Positions 20,867 to 35,779 of a DNA stretch of 37,347 bases are shown one piece after another. The translations under genes were made by a program, and so were the position numbers. A model generated the notes under the pieces. The model made no database searches. It saw only the letters and a program-made list of their open reading frames with translations, and was not told where the DNA came from. Origin of the DNA: Bacteroidota bacterium (GTDB lineage Bacteria > Bacteroidota > Bacteroidia > Bacteroidales > Prolixibacteraceae). Location: NCBI GenBank assembly GCA_030684645.1, contig JAUXUF010000179.1:104279-141625 (forward strand), read 5' to 3'. Position 1 is the stretch's first letter; the number at the start of each line of letters is the position of its first letter.

Positions 20867-20986
20867 AATCCCGTCAGGGATTCACGGTCGGTAAAAATGA
20901 AGGGGAAAGCCCATCTTTTGTCCCGTACGGGACAATCCTGTTGTTGGGCAATTATCTTTTCTACCGACCGTTTGTGCCTACGGCAC
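20867..20986. repeat. Dispersed palindromic element, copy 1
   Basis: Three nested hairpins lie in a row: AATCCCGTCAGGGATT (20867-20882), the exact 18-bp palindrome TTGTCCCGTACGGGACAA (20918-20935) and GTGCCTACGGCAC (20974-20986). GGTCGGTA near 20886 pairs with TACCGACC near 20962 to enclose the middle one. The same layout and the same central palindrome recur at 34277-34438. It occupies the gap between convergent pepD and citC and may serve as a two-way terminator. Confidence 0.78.
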
Positions 20987-21020
20987 ATTGCTGCGGACAA
21001 GGTCAATTAAAAACCTAAAA

Positions 21021-29693: not shown

Positions 29694-31442
29694 ATGAAAT
29701 ACTTTAATAATCTTTTTACACGTGCTAAGCTACTGTTTAGTTTTGGCTTGATGTGGATCATGTTTTTAGTGGTGATTATTATTGCTTACCTGGGTTTAAA
29801 AGATATCACACGATCAGAAAAAGAGTTGCACGATGTTAATTTTCAAATAGCTCTTGAACTGCGTCAGTTAAGATCTCACCAGAATTACAATAGAGCTGCA
29901 ATTCTGGATATGATGCTGACCCAAAATAAAACCGAACAATCGGCCTTTGAAGGAATCATTAATGAAAGGGCACAGGCAAATGACAATATCATCGGAAAGT
30001 TGTCCAAACTTAATATGGATCCCCAATTTCAAAACCGGTTGAAAGAATTGAAAGATAATATAGAGGAATATCGTCAAACCAGGAATACGGAAATCTCTTT
30101 AATTCGGGATGGCAAAATAGAAGAAGCAAGACAGTTGGGAATTAGTGTTGGGGGTGATCAATTTGAAAAGGTTCGATCAATCTCAACCGAAATGGGAGAT
30201 AAGGCGACGAAAGATTCAGAAGACCAACTGGCGCTTAATCAACAGCAGGCAGATTCAGCAATACTTCTCTTTGTAATATTTGGCATAGCGGCACTTTTTT
30301 TCAGTATAGTAATGATAATGCTGTTGAACAGAACAATTGCCCAACCACTCAATGAGATTACAAAAATAGCTGCACGAATAAGTGAAGGAGATTTGGATGT
30401 TGAACTTTCAGTAGTTGAAAGAAAAGATGAGATCGGAATCCTTTTACTGACTTTTAGTAGAATGGTAGATGTACTTAAAAGAATGGCAACTTCTGCTCAA
30501 CAAATTGCTTCAGGTGATCTTACAGGATCAATTGTTCCGCAATCAGAGAAAGATCTTCTTGGAAATGCTTTTTTGCAGATGTTAACCAATCTGCGCCGCA
30601 TCTTGAAAGATATTCTTGAAAGTATTAATTTACTTGCCTCGTCATCCAGTGAAATACTGGCAGCCACTACACAAGTTGCATCCGGCTCGGCTGAAACTGC
30701 ATCGGCAATCAGTGAAACAACTACAACGGTTGAGGAAGTCCGCCAGGCGGCCCAACTCTCCAGCCAAAAAGCAAGCCGTGTTTCTGAGAATGCTCAGCAA
30801 GTAGCCCAGGTTACTCAGGCCGGTCAAAAAGCAATTGATGAAACGATTAGCGGAATGCATGAAATTCAAAATCAAATGGAATCCGTTGCAAATACAATTG
30901 TCCGTTTGAGTGAGCAGAGCCAGCAGATTGGAGGCATAATTGCATCGGTAACTGATGTAGCCGATCAGTCTAATTTGTTGGCTGTAAATGCAGCCATCGA
31001 AGCAGCCAAAGCAGGAGAACAAGGAAAAGGGTTTGCAGTTGTTGCGCAAGAAATAAAGAGTCTTGCACAACAGTCAAAACAAGCTACCATACAAGTGCGC
31101 AATATATTAAGCGATATACAGAAAGCAACGAGTGCGGCAGTAATGGCCACTGAACAGACCAGCAAAGCTGTGGAAATTGGAGTAAAGCAATCAACTCAAG
31201 CCGGCGAAGCAATTAAAAATTTAGCCGAAAGCAGCGGTAAAGCGGTGGATGCGACAATACAGATTGTAGCATCGAGTCAACAGCAAGTGGTTGGAATGGA
31301 TCAAATTGGGTTAGCCATGAATAACATCAATCAGGCCGGGACGGAGAACGCGGCAAGTATGGTACAAGCCGAAAAAGCGGCGAAGGGCTTAAATGAGTTA
31401 GGTCAGAAATTGAAACTTCTGGTTGAACAGTATAAAATATAA
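29694..31442 (+). CDS. Methyl-accepting chemotaxis protein with four-helix-bundle sensor
   Basis: The 582-residue receptor has a first membrane helix (about 13-34), an all-helical periplasmic sensor of about 150 residues of the 4HB_MCP type, a second membrane helix (about 189-211), a HAMP domain (212-265, [16 protein letters not shown]) and a second HAMP-like piece ([20 protein letters not shown]). A long signalling coiled coil follows. Its tip, near residues 420-450, reads [18 protein letters not shown] then [20 protein letters not shown], the region that contacts CheA and CheW. The ligand is unknown. AGGAGG at 29681 gives a strong ribosome site. It is the only receptor in the operon. An inserted cassette follows 20 bp downstream. 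Confidence 0.95.
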
Positions 31443-31462
31443 AGGTAGTTCGGGTGAAAAAT

Positions 31463-31897
31463 AAAATGCCACAGATTCACAGATTTAATATGAAATATTC
31501 CGAAGATAAATATCCATTACAAAAAGAATGCTATCAAATTATAGGGATATGTATGGAAATTCATCGCATTTTGGGAAAAGGTTTATTGGAAATAGTTTAT
31601 AAAGACGCTATTGAATATGAATTTAATCATAAAAAAATTCCTTATGAACGCGAGAAAAAATATGAAGTTGAATACAAAGGACTAATTCTGCCTCATTTTT
31701 TCTTCGCTGATTTCGTAGTGTTTGACAAAATAATATTAGAAGTAAAGGCGCAGAAAGGAATAGTCGATGAACATTATAGTTGGGTAATAAATTATTTGGC
31801 AATTTCTAAATGTCCTTTAGGATTGATTGTAAACTTTGGCGAAAATTCATTAGTAACAAAAAGAGTAATTTTATAATCTGTGAATCTGTGGCATTTT
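31463..31897. mobile_element. 435-bp cassette: GxxExxY gene between perfect 23-bp inverted repeats
   Basis: Bases 31463-31485 and 31875-31897 are exact inverted copies (start of the left arm AAAATGCCACAGATTC). The arms enclose one gene with almost no spare DNA: its start is 4 bp inside the left arm and its stop overlaps the right arm by two bases. Without the cassette, the MCP and cheA genes would be about 72 bp apart, a normal distance for this operon. There is no transposase, and I could not identify a target duplication. RNA from this stretch could fold into a long stem enclosing the gene. Confidence 0.78.
31490..31876 (+). CDS. GxxExxY family protein (nuclease-like fold)
   Basis: I choose the ATG at 31490, giving 128 residues. 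An earlier GTG at 31454 would read through the inverted-repeat arm. The name-giving motif GLLEIVY is visible in ILGKGLLEIVYKDAIEYEF, and ADFVVFDKIILEVKA has the D...ExK pattern of PD-(D/E)xK nucleases. The family is widespread in Bacteroidota and of unknown function, often found as single genes in odd places. Here it lies in a chemotaxis operon between the receptor and the kinase genes, inside an inverted-repeat cassette, and has no visible link to signalling. The frame is intact. Confidence 0.85.
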   Translation: MKYSEDKYPLQKECYQIIGICMEIHRILGKGLLEIVYKDAIEYEFNHKKIPYEREKKYEVEYKGLILPHFFFADFVVFDKIILEVKAQKGIVDEHYSWVINYLAISKCPLGLIVNFGENSLVTKRVIL

Positions 31898-31949
31898 TTT
31901 TTTAATTCATTATTACTGAGTAGATACAAATTATAAGTGGACAAACAAA

Positions 31950-34235
31950 ATGGATAAGAAAGACGAAGAATTCCATAAACGACTTCAGGCAACTTTTCGC
32001 ATTGAAGCTGAAGAGCATATTCGCGAGCTCACGTCAGGCCTGATTGAATTAGAGAAAACGCCTAAAACTGAAAAGGCCTCTAATTTGATAGAGGTTATTT
32101 TCCGCGAAGCACACAGTCTAAAGGGAGCTGCACGTTCAGTTAACAGGTATGATGTTGAATCTATTTGCCAGGTATTGGAGAGCATATTCGGGGAATTGAA
32201 AAATGAACGAATTTCTTTGACTGCCGAACAATTTGATCTTATTCATAAAGCAATTAATAACATTTCGAAAATAGTATCGGGTGGTGAAACAATAATTCCC
32301 GGGGACCACAGAGCATTAATAAACCAATTGAAATACATCACAGAAGCAGATCAATCTGGGAAAATAGCCGAAGAGCAAACAACATCCGTTAAGAACGCTT
32401 TTGAAGAAGACACAACAACTGCTTCATCACCGAATGAAAAACCTGTTGCCGCAGAATTATTAATAGAAGAAAGACCGGCGCAAATAGGAACTGTGAGAAT
32501 ACCAACGGCAAAGATAGATCCGCTTTTTTTACAGGCTGAACAAATGATTCAATCTAAAATTACAGCGACTCAAAGGACTGTTGAAATGAAGAATATGATT
32601 GATTTTATTGACTCGTGGAAAACAGAATTAAGAAAATTGAATTCACGTCGTTCTAATGAAAGCATTCTTCAGCTTAAAGAAATAAATGATTGGAACAATG
32701 AAAAATTAAATGAACTTGAAACCCAAATAGTTGCTGTTTCTCATGCATTAGAAATCGATCAGCGTTCGCTTGGACGAATGATTGACGATCACCTGGAATC
32801 GATGAAAAGCGTGTTGATGCTTCCTGTATCAACAATAATTGAAGGGTTTCCCAAATTTGTCCGGGATCTCGCCCGCAGTCAAGGTAAAGAAGCAGAGTTG
32901 ATTTTGCATGGAATCGAGATTGAAGTTGACAAACGGATTCTGGAAGAGTTGAAAGATCCATTGATTCATTTGATAAGGAATTGTATTGACCATGGAATAA
33001 AAAAACCTGATGAACGGGAACACTCAAATAAACCATCGCATGCAAAAGTAACACTAAGCTTTAACGCAACAGAGAGCCGACATTTAGAGATTATCATTTC
33101 CGACGATGGCGCAGGCATTGAGCTTGATAACATTCGCAGGGCAGTCATCAAAGCAGGCGTTATTGCCAAAGGTTCTTTGGAGAATCTCAATCCACAGGAA
33201 ACTTTGATGTTAATATTTCAGTCTGGTATCTCAACAAGCCAAATGATTACAGCCATTTCAGGACGCGGATTAGGTTTAGCTATCGTTCGTGAGAAGGTCG
33301 AAAAACTTGGCGGATCAGTTTCAGTAGAAAGCCAGCCGAATATTGGTACCACTTTCCGTCTTCTGTTACCATTGACCTTAGCAACATTCAGGGGTATTCT
33401 TGTGCGCATCGGCGAACATCTGGTTGCTGTACCTACTATTCATGTTGAACGGGCAGTAAGAGTAAGCCGGGAGGTAATCCAAACTGTTGAAAGCAGAGAG
33501 ACGATATTGATTGATGGAAAAATTCTTAAAATAGTTAAGCTTGGAAAAGTGTTGGGCTTTTTAAACGGGAACAATACTACCTCAAATAAAAAGAATGACC
33601 CTGCCACCAGTCTAAATAATATTCAATTATTGATTCTTGTACACGCTGATAAACGGATAGCTTTTATTGTGGATGAGATTTTAGAGGAGTGCCAGATACT
33701 TGTTAAAGAATTGGGCAGGCAGCTAATCCGGGTGCGGAATATAAGCGGAGCCACAGTTCTTGGTTCCGGGAAAGTTGTACCTGTAATTAATGTTTCAGAT
33801 TTAATGAAATCGGCAATGCGAACAGAAATGCCCTTAAAAGAGTCGAAAGAAAAGGAGATTGAGACTGCAAAGAGATACAAAATTTTAGTCATAGATGATT
33901 CAATTACATCGCGAACCTTAATCAAGAATATTGTGGAATCAGCAGGTTATCTGGTTGAAACTGCTGTTGACGGCATAGATGCATTTACGAAAGCGCTGAT
34001 AGGCGAATTCGATTTGATTGTATCTGATATTGATATGCCCAGGATGAACGGTTTTGAACTTACAGCAAAAATCCGCAAAGACAAAAAACTTACGGAATTG
34101 CCGGTTGTGTTAGTAACTGCTCTCGAAACGCGTGAAGACCGCGAACACGGTATTGATGTTGGCGCCAACGCTTACATTGTAAAGAGTAGTTTTGATCAAA
34201 GTGATTTGTTGGAAGTAATTAGAAAACTTTTGTAA
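31950..34235 (+). CDS. cheA: CheA-type histidine kinase with C-terminal receiver domain (FrzE-like)
   Basis: The 761-residue protein has an Hpt domain (about 10-115) with phosphorylatable H55 in REAHSLKGAA, a linker with no clear CheY-binding P2 domain, a helical dimerisation region (about 195-310), the ATPase domain (N344 in LIRNCIDHGI, DDGAG at 385-389, GRGLGLAI near 438) and a CheW-like domain (about 475-625). The receiver domain (644-761) has acidic D649-D650, phosphoacceptor D693 in VSDIDMP and the lysine in AYIVKSS. Kinase fused to receiver is the FrzE arrangement. It receives signals from the MCP through CheW and may pass phosphate to its own receiver, CheB and the final hybrid kinase. 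No good ribosome site precedes it. Confidence 0.95.
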   Translation: MDKKDEEFHKRLQATFRIEAEEHIRELTSGLIELEKTPKTEKASNLIEVIFREAHSLKGAARSVNRYDVESICQVLESIFGELKNERISLTAEQFDLIHKAINNISKIVSGGETIIPGDHRALINQLKYITEADQSGKIAEEQTTSVKNAFEEDTTTASSPNEKPVAAELLIEERPAQIGTVRIPTAKIDPLFLQAEQMIQSKITATQRTVEMKNMIDFIDSWKTELRKLNSRRSNESILQLKEINDWNNEKLNELETQIVAVSHALEIDQRSLGRMIDDHLESMKSVLMLPVSTIIEGFPKFVRDLARSQGKEAELILHGIEIEVDKRILEELKDPLIHLIRNCIDHGIKKPDEREHSNKPSHAKVTLSFNATESRHLEIIISDDGAGIELDNIRRAVIKAGVIAKGSLENLNPQETLMLIFQSGISTSQMITAISGRGLGLAIVREKVEKLGGSVSVESQPNIGTTFRLLLPLTLATFRGILVRIGEHLVAVPTIHVERAVRVSREVIQTVESRETILIDGKILKIVKLGKVLGFLNGNNTTSNKKNDPATSLNNIQLLILVHADKRIAFIVDEILEECQILVKELGRQLIRVRNISGATVLGSGKVVPVINVSDLMKSAMRTEMPLKESKEKEIETAKRYKILVIDDSITSRTLIKNIVESAGYLVETAVDGIDAFTKALIGEFDLIVSDIDMPRMNGFELTAKIRKDKKLTELPVVLVTALETREDREHGIDVGANAYIVKSSFDQSDLLEVIRKLL

Positions 34236-34237
34236 AA

Positions 34238-34687
34238 TAGGCTGTTAGGCTGTAGAAAAATAGAATAATGACATTAAGAGACTGTTTAAATTTTGATTTC
34301 TTGTTCCGTTAGGAACGAAAGGTCGGTAGAATAAATGCAGAAAAGCTTATCTTTTGTCCCGTACGGGACAATCCAATGGTCGTTAATTACCATTTCTACC
34401 GACATATTTTCCCTACGGGAAATTTTTAAACAGTCTCTAAACAGTCTATGAATATAGGAGGAAAAATGAGAGATCACACTAAGCTCAGAGCATTTGAACT
34501 TGCCGATGAAGTGGCAGTTTTAACAATACAGTTAGATAGGCTGAAGGCTTTTAGACAGTTAGTTAAAAGGTCTGAGAAAAATTTCTTAAGACGTTTTACT
34601 ATTTTTGGATTACTAAAGATTGTTGCGGTTATTGGATTTCATTTTTCTAAATACCTGACAGTCTATAGCCCACAACCTAACAGCCTA
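34238..34687. mobile_element. Second cassette-like insertion between cheA and cheB
   Basis: TAGGCTGTTAGG at 34238-34249 is exactly inverted by CCTAACAGCCTA at 34676-34687, and the inner bases pair further with a short bulge. The segment contains the palindromic element at 34277-34438 and most of a degenerate four-helix-bundle gene. Removing it would leave about 50 bp between the cheA stop and the cheB start. The right flank continues with tandem AGTCTAATAGTCTAACAGTCTA-like units, here given by the unit (T)AGTCTAA, up to about 34720. The exact borders are uncertain. Confidence 0.5.
34277..34438. repeat. 162-bp palindromic element with 14-bp terminal inverted repeats, copy 2
   Basis: AGAGACTGTTTAAA at 34277-34290 is the exact inverse of 34425-34438. 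Inside lie a GTTCC/GGAAC hairpin, GTCGGTAGAA (34322-34331) pairing with TTCTACCGAC (34394-34403), the 18-bp palindrome TTGTCCCGTACGGGACAA (34354-34371), and a TTTCCC/GGGAAA hairpin. The hairpin order and the central palindrome match the copy at 20867-20986. This size and structure fit a non-autonomous MITE-like or REP-like element. Confidence 0.75.
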
Positions 34688-34711
34688 CTGCCTAATAGTC
34701 TAATAGTCTAA
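34466..34711 (+). pseudogene. Degenerate four-helix-bundle (S23/IVS-type) protein gene
   Basis: From the ATG at 34466, preceded by AGGAGG, the first 20 residues MRDHTKLRAFELADEVAVLT match the start of the small four-helix-bundle family (about 115-125 residues). The expected middle part is missing, and KRSEKNFLRRFTIFG resembles the later RSEKDFLRFLEIA-type segment. After that the frame runs into the flanking tandem repeats and stops at 81 residues. I read this as a gene with an internal deletion and a foreign tail. The family is known from the intervening sequences of bacterial 23S rRNA genes and as stand-alone genes. A short but working protein cannot be fully excluded. Confidence 0.68.
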
Positions 34712-34735
34712 CAGTCTAAATACCTAAAAATAATA

Positions 34736-35779
34736 ATGATAAAAGTCCTGATAGTTGAAGATTCACCGGTAATGCAGCAATTGCTTGCCTACACGATTAC
34801 TAACGATCCGGTTTTAAAAGTTGTCGGAATTGCCGAAAATGGCGAAGAAGCCATTGAGGCAGTTAAGAAATTCCATCCTGATGTAATAGCAATGGATATG
34901 CATATGCCAAAATTAGATGGACTGCAGGCAACACGCATAATAATGGGAACAAACCCGATACCAATTGTAATTGTTTCCGGAAGTTCAGCAGCGAACGATG
35001 TAGCTTTTTCATTTAGCATGTTCGAAGCCGGAGCTTTAGCCATAGTTAAAAAACCACCAGGTGTTGATCACCCCGATTATAAAAAAGAGGCACAAGAGTT
35101 AATAAAAACATTAAAACTAATGTCTGAAGTGAAATTGGTCAGACGTGTCTCATACAGTACGAAAAAACAAGCGCCGGCAGAACCCGCAATCGGGAAAAAA
35201 ATTAGTACGGAACCGGAAATTCAGGTTATTGTTATCGGCGCTTCCACAGGCGGCCCTCTGGTTTTACAAAAAATTCTTTCAGGATTACCTAAAAATATTC
35301 CGGTTCCACTTTTAATTGTTCAACACATCGCACATGGGTTTACAGAGGGTTTTGTTGAATGGCTGAAGAACACAACCAATTTTCCAATCCATATTGCTAC
35401 TCATGGTGAATATCCACTTCCGGGACATGGTTATGTAGCTCCGGATAATTTTCACATGGGAGTTGAAAGAGGACCTAAAATTGTACTGAGCAACCATGAA
35501 TTGGAAAATGGCCTGAGACCGTCGGTTGCGTATCTCTTTCGTACAGCGGCACAAGCCTTCGGATCCGGAGCAGTTGGGGTATTGCTTACCGGAATGGGTC
35601 GTGATGGCGCTGAGGAATTAAAAATAATGAAAGAAAACGGGGCGATTACTTTTGCTCAGAATGAAGAAAGTTCTGTTGTGCACGGAATGCCCGGCGAAGC
35701 AATAAAACTCAATGCCGCAACGCATATTCTTTCGCCGGAGAATATAATAACGGCTCTGATTGCTTTAATTAAAAAATGA
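34736..35779 (+). CDS. cheB: CheB-type chemoreceptor methylesterase with receiver domain
   Basis: The 347-residue protein has an N-terminal receiver domain (1-125; phosphoacceptor D54 in IAMDMHMP, acidic pair E8-D9, K105) and a C-terminal methylesterase domain (about 160-347). The catalytic triad is visible as S170 in GASTGGP, H197 in VQHIAHGF and D290 in TGMGRDGAEEL. It removes methyl groups from the MCP and deamidates glutamines, working against CheR for adaptation. Length and residues are normal. It follows the second cassette and is 12 bp upstream of the final hybrid kinase gene. Confidence 0.95.
   Translation: MIKVLIVEDSPVMQQLLAYTITNDPVLKVVGIAENGEEAIEAVKKFHPDVIAMDMHMPKLDGLQATRIIMGTNPIPIVIVSGSSAANDVAFSFSMFEAGALAIVKKPPGVDHPDYKKEAQELIKTLKLMSEVKLVRRVSYSTKKQAPAEPAIGKKISTEPEIQVIVIGASTGGPLVLQKILSGLPKNIPVPLLIVQHIAHGFTEGFVEWLKNTTNFPIHIATHGEYPLPGHGYVAPDNFHMGVERGPKIVLSNHELENGLRPSVAYLFRTAAQAFGSGAVGVLLTGMGRDGAEELKIMKENGAITFAQNEESSVVHGMPGEAIKLNAATHILSPENIITALIALIKK

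Follow-up and report, generated by a model that had tools for sequence, protein, structure and literature searches.

Two one-gene cassettes with inverted-repeat arms in a Bacteroidota chemotaxis operon, resembling the intervening sequences of 23S rRNA

The window analyzed here, a 37,347-nt stretch of a Prolixibacteraceae genome (contig JAUXUF010000179.1), contains a chemotaxis operon in which two small cassettes lie between host genes. Cassette 1 carries a GxxExxY gene, and cassette 2 carries the remnant of a gene of the 23S_rRNA_IVP (IVP) four-helix family. Sequence comparison shows that the unit is one gene with two inverted arms; it recurs at loci unrelated to each other, in several genera and, as far as record titles tell, in more than one phylum. 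Such a cassette is almost certainly a mobile unit. On balance, we favor the view that both belong to a widespread class of one-gene mobile cassettes of ~0.4-0.6 kb that lie in sense within operon messages and are built like the intervening sequences (IVSs) of rRNA.

Cassette 1 has the following parts:
31468..31892, plus strand: GxxExxY cassette, 425 nt, from GCC to GGC (DNA matches in 42 of 45 loci; size from 12 intact copies)
31468..31485, plus strand: left terminal repeat GCCACAGATTCACAGATT, GC followed by two CACAGATT units
31490..31876, plus strand: GxxExxY gene, 128 aa, PD-(D/E)XK (PDDEXK_3) nuclease family (TIGR04256 and PF13366 profiles)
31875..31892, plus strand: right terminal repeat AATCTGTGAATCTGTGGC, inverse of the left, overlapping the stop codon

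A preliminary description of this DNA had placed the GxxExxY gene between perfect 23-bp inverted repeats (31463-31897), in agreement with the coordinates of the core (31463-31485 and 31875-31897) and with our border alignments. Pairing reaches outward to 31457, the arms 31457-31485 and 31875-31903 being complementary at 28 of 29 positions. The ATG (31490) follows the left arm after a 4-nt spacer, and the stop codon (31874-31876) overlaps the right arm. The protein matched TIGR04256 (E 4e-36) and PF13366 PDDEXK_3 (E 5e-32). Among 53 GxxExxY proteins, E34, Y37, D74, E84 and N115 are invariant and K86 is conserved in at least 90%; we take these residues to be the PD-(D/E)XK catalytic signature (E...D...ExK). 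No credible relative was found by sequence in PDB, no defence family for the cassette was matched in PADLOC, and neither a phage record nor a confirmed viral-contig relative was found.

A pattern scan with the window GxxExxY protein over the contigs of 84,980 species genomes gave 45 loci, labelled Bacteroidales, Methylococcales, Chitinophaga, Vicingaceae, Ignavibacteria, Flavobacterium and others; the culturable genera among them are, by record titles, Flavobacterium, Chryseobacterium and Cloacibacterium. Since most of these loci come from metagenome bins, single host labels may be wrong. When positions 31000-32400 (plus strand, E up to 1e-10) were compared with the 45 loci, 42 gave a DNA match, all inside 31456-31915, and the flanks were matched in none. 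Eleven loci align from 31456-31463 to 31891-31902 at 79.8-90.4% identity, and more distant loci give partial gene matches at 67-72%. The intact cassette measured 425-429 nt in 12 loci (the window and 11 others), and a thirteenth, internally deleted, measured 196 nt. Loci L169 and L170 are internally deleted copies that keep both ends, and L168 keeps the right end only. Fifteen copies or fragments are present in the genome of the window; the window arm pattern, at up to two mismatches, was found nowhere else in it, so there are no solo copies and cassette 1 looks like a single arrival. Two other GxxExxY genes of this genome (L006 and L008) lie ~1.2 kb apart and are 82% alike over 473 bp. That insertion generally targets palindromes already present was rejected: compared position by position, the outer flanks at 14 loci were no more complementary than cross-locus pairs (permutation p 0.41-0.82), and a gapped comparison (14.6 vs 12.5) was driven by a few loci, including L133, L134, L135 and L138.

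Cassette 2 has the following parts:
34238..34253, plus strand: left arm TAGGCTGTTAGGCTGT, a unit common to the arms of the IVP cassette at locus L075
34274..34441 (34268-34447 at its widest), no strand: nested ~170-bp repeat, itself ending in inverted repeats, located after the left arm and before the gene remnant
34466..34540, plus strand: what is left of a four-helix gene of the 23S_rRNA_IVP type, its N-terminal 25 codons (tblastn match with the L075 protein)
34655..34720, plus strand: right arm, tandem CTAAYAGY-type units (~60-nt alignment to the L075 right arm)

Cassette 2 is, as its alignments indicate, a decayed 23S_rRNA_IVP cassette whose gene is unrecognizable beyond codon 25. The degenerate four-helix gene with inverted flanks first proposed at 34238-34687 stood as regards the repeats, 34238-34253 and 34672-34687 being complementary at 15 of 16 positions. 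Its four-helix identity stood for 25 codons only, over which the remnant matched the L075 protein at 60% (tblastn, E 3e-8 in a very small search). The 81-aa open reading frame (ORF) had no match in Pfam or NCBIfam and was not recovered by a profile from 35 IVP genes (best E 0.15). The right arm is a longer tandem array that runs to about 34720, and the arms of cassette 2 and L075 share a TAGGCTGT-type unit. The gene of L075 belongs to PF05635 23S_rRNA_IVP, as does that of L011. The nested repeat, which the preliminary description does not mention, has 41 matching pieces in its own genome, itself included; it was also noted in the window at ~20886-20989 and at L262-L291, and it holds three inner hairpins, GTTCCGTTAGGAAC, GTCCCGTACGGGAC and TTTCCCTACGGGAAA.

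The host genes around the cassettes are as follows:
29694..31442, plus strand: methyl-accepting chemotaxis protein (MCP) gene, upstream of cassette 1
31950..34235, plus strand: CheA-type kinase with a receiver domain, separating the two cassettes
34736..35779, plus strand: CheB methylesterase gene, downstream of cassette 2

These coordinates confirm that the two cassettes occupy different gaps of one chemosensory operon, cassette 1 lying between MCP and CheA and cassette 2 between CheA and CheB. The search for the same operon without cassettes, suggested at the outset, yielded four relatives (L026-L029); neither cassette gene was found in any of the four, and the gaps measure <15 to ~180 bp. 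Because the IVP query used there was the decayed remnant of cassette 2, it is the gap sizes that carry the argument for absence. The residual gaps differ from the first estimates: removal of cassette 1 leaves 25 + 57 = 82 bp rather than ~72 bp, and removal of cassette 2 leaves 2 + 15 bp rather than ~50 bp if its right arm extends to 34720.

Inverted flanks, for which the preliminary description had proposed a test, proved to be a property of most genes tested in both families. With a local alignment score of at least 26 as the threshold for a clear flanking inverted repeat, and a cross-locus null for comparison, such repeats were found at 62 of 75 GxxExxY genes from a set of 23 genomes of one genus (null 7.3%), at 44 of 68 in a separate GxxExxY sample from the phylum (3.9%) and at 27 of 35 IVP genes (5.5%). 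In a named set of GxxExxY loci the count was 32 of 37, with a null of 36% because its members share arms. The contrary outcome, that GxxExxY genes generally lack such flanks, held in neither genus nor phylum. Control ORFs taken from these loci carried inverted repeats in 2 of 97 cases with both strands scanned, both being further cassette genes, and in 2 of 44 cases in the phylum, one of them presumably an IS200-type transposase gene. Chance inverted repeats are excluded by the border alignments at unrelated loci, the cross-locus nulls and the control ORFs. GxxExxY genes are present in 23/23 genomes of the genus and in 46/90 phylum genomes (34/54 genera), and IVP genes in 23/23 of the genus.

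The genus GxxExxY sample comprised 76 of 106 matches, mostly the better-scoring and more complete ones, 75 of them with enough flank; the contig-end fragments L009 and L010 were excluded. For IVP genes, 35 of 197 matches were used, namely the best-scoring ones and seven of the nine from the genome of the window; the weak matches L018 and L019, without clear inverted repeats, were excluded, and their inclusion would make the count 27/37. The phylum sample comprised 68 of 148 matches outside the genome of the window, with the RecQ-fusion locus L261 kept apart. The named set consisted of 45 loci minus five partial ones (L162 and L168-L171), 37 of the remaining 40 having enough flank. Plasmid loci were taken from five of six records, a Prevotella record being left out.

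The cassettes sit in narrow gaps between co-directional genes and, with very few exceptions, run in sense. Both neighbors, counted as mechanical ORFs of at least 90 aa and not as annotated genes, run in the direction of the cassette (++) at 63/71 genus, 29/37 named, 56/67 phylum and 33/34 IVP loci, and both are reversed (--) at 1/71, 2/37, 2/67 and 0/34, respectively; three of the 40 named loci were edge loci. Counted by flank cluster, GxxExxY cassettes were ++ in 54, -- in 3, mixed in 7 and edge in 1, and IVP cassettes ++ in 15, -- in 0 and mixed (+-) in 1. At ++ loci with a repeat score of at least 30, removal of the cassette leaves a median gap of 13 bp in the genus (45 loci), 55 bp in the named set (23), 22 bp in the phylum (34) and 19 bp for IVP (21). 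On the upstream-stop side the distance was within 12 bp in 34 of the 45 genus loci, vs 13 of 45 on the start side.

Two intergenic gaps, termed A and B, were found in different states among the genus genomes. Gap A was represented by 14 loci in 13/23 genomes: in four the next gene begins 21-31 nt after the last aligned codon, six contain a GxxExxY cassette, its arms belonging to either of two families, two contain an IVP gene (L186 partly on the contig) and two other sequence. In L180, at this gap, a CACGGATTA hairpin has been left behind and its loop encloses an IVP cassette. Gap B, whose downstream gene we take to encode a D-Ala-D-Ala ligase, was scored in 21/23 genomes. In six the full GxxExxY cassette, with CACATAG words, is present; in five, words of this kind form a hairpin that lacks a gene (two with further sequence). 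Eight hold other sequence, and two are empty (22-23 bp). The five hairpins fold at -15.4 to -33.7 kcal/mol vs mononucleotide-shuffle means of -4.0 to -7.4, and a matched double change was seen in 2 of 21 consensus pairs. The gene can drop out and leave an arm hairpin, and one cassette can sit in the loop of another. Nesting is limited to some loci (L129, L133, L135, L138 and L180).

The arms consist of tandem 7-10-nt units: the two arms of any one element share their units, whereas other elements have other units. GxxExxY arms carry CACAGATT, CACAAAG, CACATAG, CACAGAG, GCGAATT or TGATT words, and IVP arms carry TTAGGCT, GGAGACC, AAGTTTC or AATTACG. Autocorrelation of the IVP arms gave a match of 0.497 at lag 7 (z 17.9) and a further signal at lag 14 (z 10.8); GxxExxY arms peaked at lags 8, 9 and 10 in the genus (z 7.4, 7.5 and 9.2, respectively), at lag 8 in the named set (z 11.3) and at lag 9 in the phylum (z 10.4). 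Arm similarity tracked protein similarity at unrelated loci (rho 0.27, 7,814 pairs), an arm score of at least 30 being reached by 44% of pairs with a protein score >0.65, 7% at 0.5-0.65 and 1-3% below, as expected if arms and gene travel together.

Both gene and arms show signs of constraint. At orthologous sites, whose groups were picked by hand for the analyses of arm change, arm rate and the ratio of nonsynonymous to synonymous substitution rates (dN/dS), the median dN/dS was 0.073 for GxxExxY (29/37 pairs) and 0.129 for IVP (13/18 pairs), the remaining pairs having saturated dS; the window GxxExxY gene compared with copies elsewhere gave 0.076 (20/22 copies). Divergence between GxxExxY pairs was 0.071 at codon positions 1+2, 0.112 in arms, 0.176 in spacers and 0.381 at four-fold sites, and the site classes fall in the same order in IVP. 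These results suggest that the gene and, mostly, the arms are kept once resident. The cassettes had been proposed to be selfish elements tolerated in operons; discrete mobile units they are, but mere tolerance is harder to square with the constraint on the genes and most arms. Selection on pairing itself is less clear: one-sided arm changes are far more numerous than matched double ones, although the latter numbered 50 vs ~16 expected, a rough expectation over ordered pairs that are not independent. Predicted RNA folds bring the two arms of each cassette together, with the ORF enclosed (z -4.9 and -7.9).

The most likely account of how the operon bears an insertion is the IVS-like one. The ORF would be translated from the host operon message, enclosed by a stem that the arms form, and the stem would keep the insertion harmless, either by isolating the ORF or by letting RNase III cut, as in rRNA IVSs. 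Spread or upkeep would most likely depend on word recognition by the encoded protein; in each class the protein concerned, GxxExxY nuclease or IVP, would recognize the iterated units and make or maintain the insertion. The parts of this account differ in strength. That arm pairing takes place in the message and matters for function seems to us an even call, the putative action of the GxxExxY protein on its own arms falls a little short of that, and the predicted excision by RNase III is rather doubtful. That two unrelated proteins share one architecture suggests that the stem, and not the protein, defines the class.

The anatomical side of the idea that the cassettes are a messenger-RNA counterpart of rRNA IVSs was upheld by the inverted-repeat borders, the sense placement in operon gaps, the IVP family and the predicted arm pairing. 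According to PMC4990558, the Coxiella rRNA IVS is 428 nt long, is closed by a terminal stem of 28 bp and can be cleaved in vitro by RNase III; the same paper states that, even after 25 years, it is not clear what rRNA IVSs do or how they arose. Cassette 1 likewise combines a size of ~0.4 kb with a terminal stem (425 nt, 18-29-bp arms). Cassettes resemble 23S rRNA IVSs in length (~0.43 kb), in an ORF within 18-28-bp terminal inverted repeats and in sporadic spread, and those of the IVP class share the 23S_rRNA_IVP / S23 protein family with them. Unlike 23S rRNA IVSs, both cassettes lie between protein genes and not inside a 23S rRNA gene, the class 1 ORF is GxxExxY (PDDEXK_3), the arms are made of iterated 7-10-nt units and gene-less hairpins occur. 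In candidate phyla radiation (CPR) bacteria, PMC11270868 describes IVP in 16S and 23S rRNA insertions, along with homing-endonuclease insertions. These are likewise small gene-bearing inserts within transcribed units; however, they lie in rRNA and are mostly of the LAGLIDADG or GIY type, whereas the cassettes here encode PD-(D/E)XK or IVP proteins in messages. The Avd protein of diversity-generating retroelements belongs to the four-helix family, according to PMC10053308; the bAvd model matches L011 and L075 below its cut-off. IVS, IVP and GxxExxY are already named families. In the open-licence literature searched, we found no description of flanking repeats of GxxExxY genes, nor of a message-resident class, iterated words, gene-less hairpins or gap polymorphism.

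Several observations weigh against a message-resident, IVS-like class. Clear inverted repeats were lacking at 13/75 genus, 24/68 phylum and 8/35 IVP genes, and among five plasmid loci (Treponema, Fusobacteria, Persicobacter, Bernardetia and Sphingomonas) only that of Bernardetia passed the threshold, so that the case for generality outside the phylum is weak. Rfam gave no match in 31300-34900 at E up to 1, and thus no group I or II intron fold. Sense orientation is also typical of ordinary operon genes, and stop-codon targeting was rejected because the genus signal was not repeated in the phylum set (18/34 vs 17/34). The borders showed no target duplication signal (outer-flank direct-repeat score 9.4 within loci vs 9.8 across loci, 13 loci) and no general outer complementarity. 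As for pairing, one-sided arm changes (553) outnumber the 50 matched doubles, and a G-U pair results in 109 of the 553, which is not visibly favored. Several pairs are broken in the gap B hairpins, with an unfavorable covariation term (+2.64), and in the L052/L118/L123 group the arms changed at least as much as four-fold sites. Finally, the 878-aa protein encoded at locus L261 (798-3434, minus strand) joins a GxxExxY nuclease domain to a RecQ helicase, which suggests that the nuclease works on DNA and not RNA; in genomes G114 and G098, GxxExxY matches lie in frames as long as that of L261, where a fusion is probable by frame length.

An alternative is a DNA transposon-like element with terminal repeats and with hairpin derivatives that are non-autonomous; either the GxxExxY nuclease or some unrelated enzyme acting in trans would move it as DNA. 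No role would then fall to the RNA stem, and sense orientation would come from selection for operon expression. The sharp borders fit this view, as do the deleted copies (L169 and L170 with both ends, L168 with the right end), the gene-less hairpins, the conserved nuclease residues, the RecQ fusion and the one-sided arm changes. Miniature inverted-repeat transposable elements and insertion sequence ends also have terminal inverted repeats at mobile borders and internally deleted copies; the cassettes differ from them in showing no target duplication signal and in their sense bias and iterated arm units. Repetitive extragenic palindromes and their associated tyrosine transposases offer hairpins beside genes and solo copies, but here the arms enclose a gene; a search confined to the window cassettes found no Y1 transposase. 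No recognized transposase was found in these two cassettes, where only PDDEXK_3 appeared. It also counts against this alternative that IVP cassettes, whose protein is unrelated and no nuclease, are built in the same way, and that copies with both neighbors reversed are few (1/71 in the genus, 2/37 in the named set, 2/67 in the phylum and 0/34 for IVP). We consider this alternative unlikely.

A still more improbable explanation is that these are host-beneficial operon genes, serving as regulators or in genome maintenance or defence, that carry their own processing or attenuation stem and are not selfish. The low dN/dS at orthologous sites, the mostly constrained arms and the presence of GxxExxY in 23/23 genus genomes would agree with it. 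However, a single gap is empty, solo or filled among relatives of one genus, gene-less hairpins persist without the gene, PADLOC gave no match and the genome of the window holds 15 copies or fragments. That they are ordinary small operon genes with chance inverted flanks can be dismissed: sense orientation alone would be unremarkable, but the cassette-only homology with borders at the repeats, the control ORFs, the cross-locus nulls, the iterated units and the states of gap B contradict it.

Returning to the IVS-like class, a bolder and quite tentative extension is that stem cassettes resident in messages may form a large class, with rRNA IVSs as the minor part of it that resides in rRNA. Stems of iterated short words would be the durable element of such a class, able to stand by themselves in operon gaps, and genes (GxxExxY nuclease, IVP) would come and go or take each other's place in their loops; protein and word set would co-evolve as a lineage-specific address, and operon messages would be the habitat. 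IVS-like anatomy in protein operons, with natural empty, solo and filled sites, makes the question of IVS function and origin testable. "Hypothetical" GxxExxY and four-helix genes gain a shared context, and it would be a mistake to assign small genes of this kind to the pathway of the operon in which they sit.

Some individual loci deserve mention. At L138, a GxxExxY cassette lies within arms AATTTAGGATTTAGGATTTTAGATTT that resemble the four-helix type, giving a nested pair. In gap B, L296 and L299 carry ~820-bp inserts with a different ORF (starting MNKEQFD), possibly another gene at the same landing site. On the Sphingomonas plasmid (L192), the GxxExxY gene is annotated between fabD and fabG and has CGCGAAG-type tandem words on its left side, with no clear flanking inverted repeat (score 22). 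On the Fusobacteria plasmid (L189), the flanks of the GxxExxY gene are apparently direct and not inverted, with ATCAGTGAAAAT...AATCCGTGTACC on the left and a near copy in the same direction on the right. An outer repeat, AACTACTC-G-AGC, occurs as an exact pattern in only four of 291 loci (L131, L133, L135 and L168), its carriers being three Methylococcales bins and one further deleted copy; the other fetched loci are without it, and at L131 the outer repeat is clear on the left side only. A one-base variant is present in L129, labelled Bacteroidetes. The cassettes of the Methylococcales bins adjoin or sit within the outer repeat TAACTACTC-G-AGC, which may be a separate repeat of that group.

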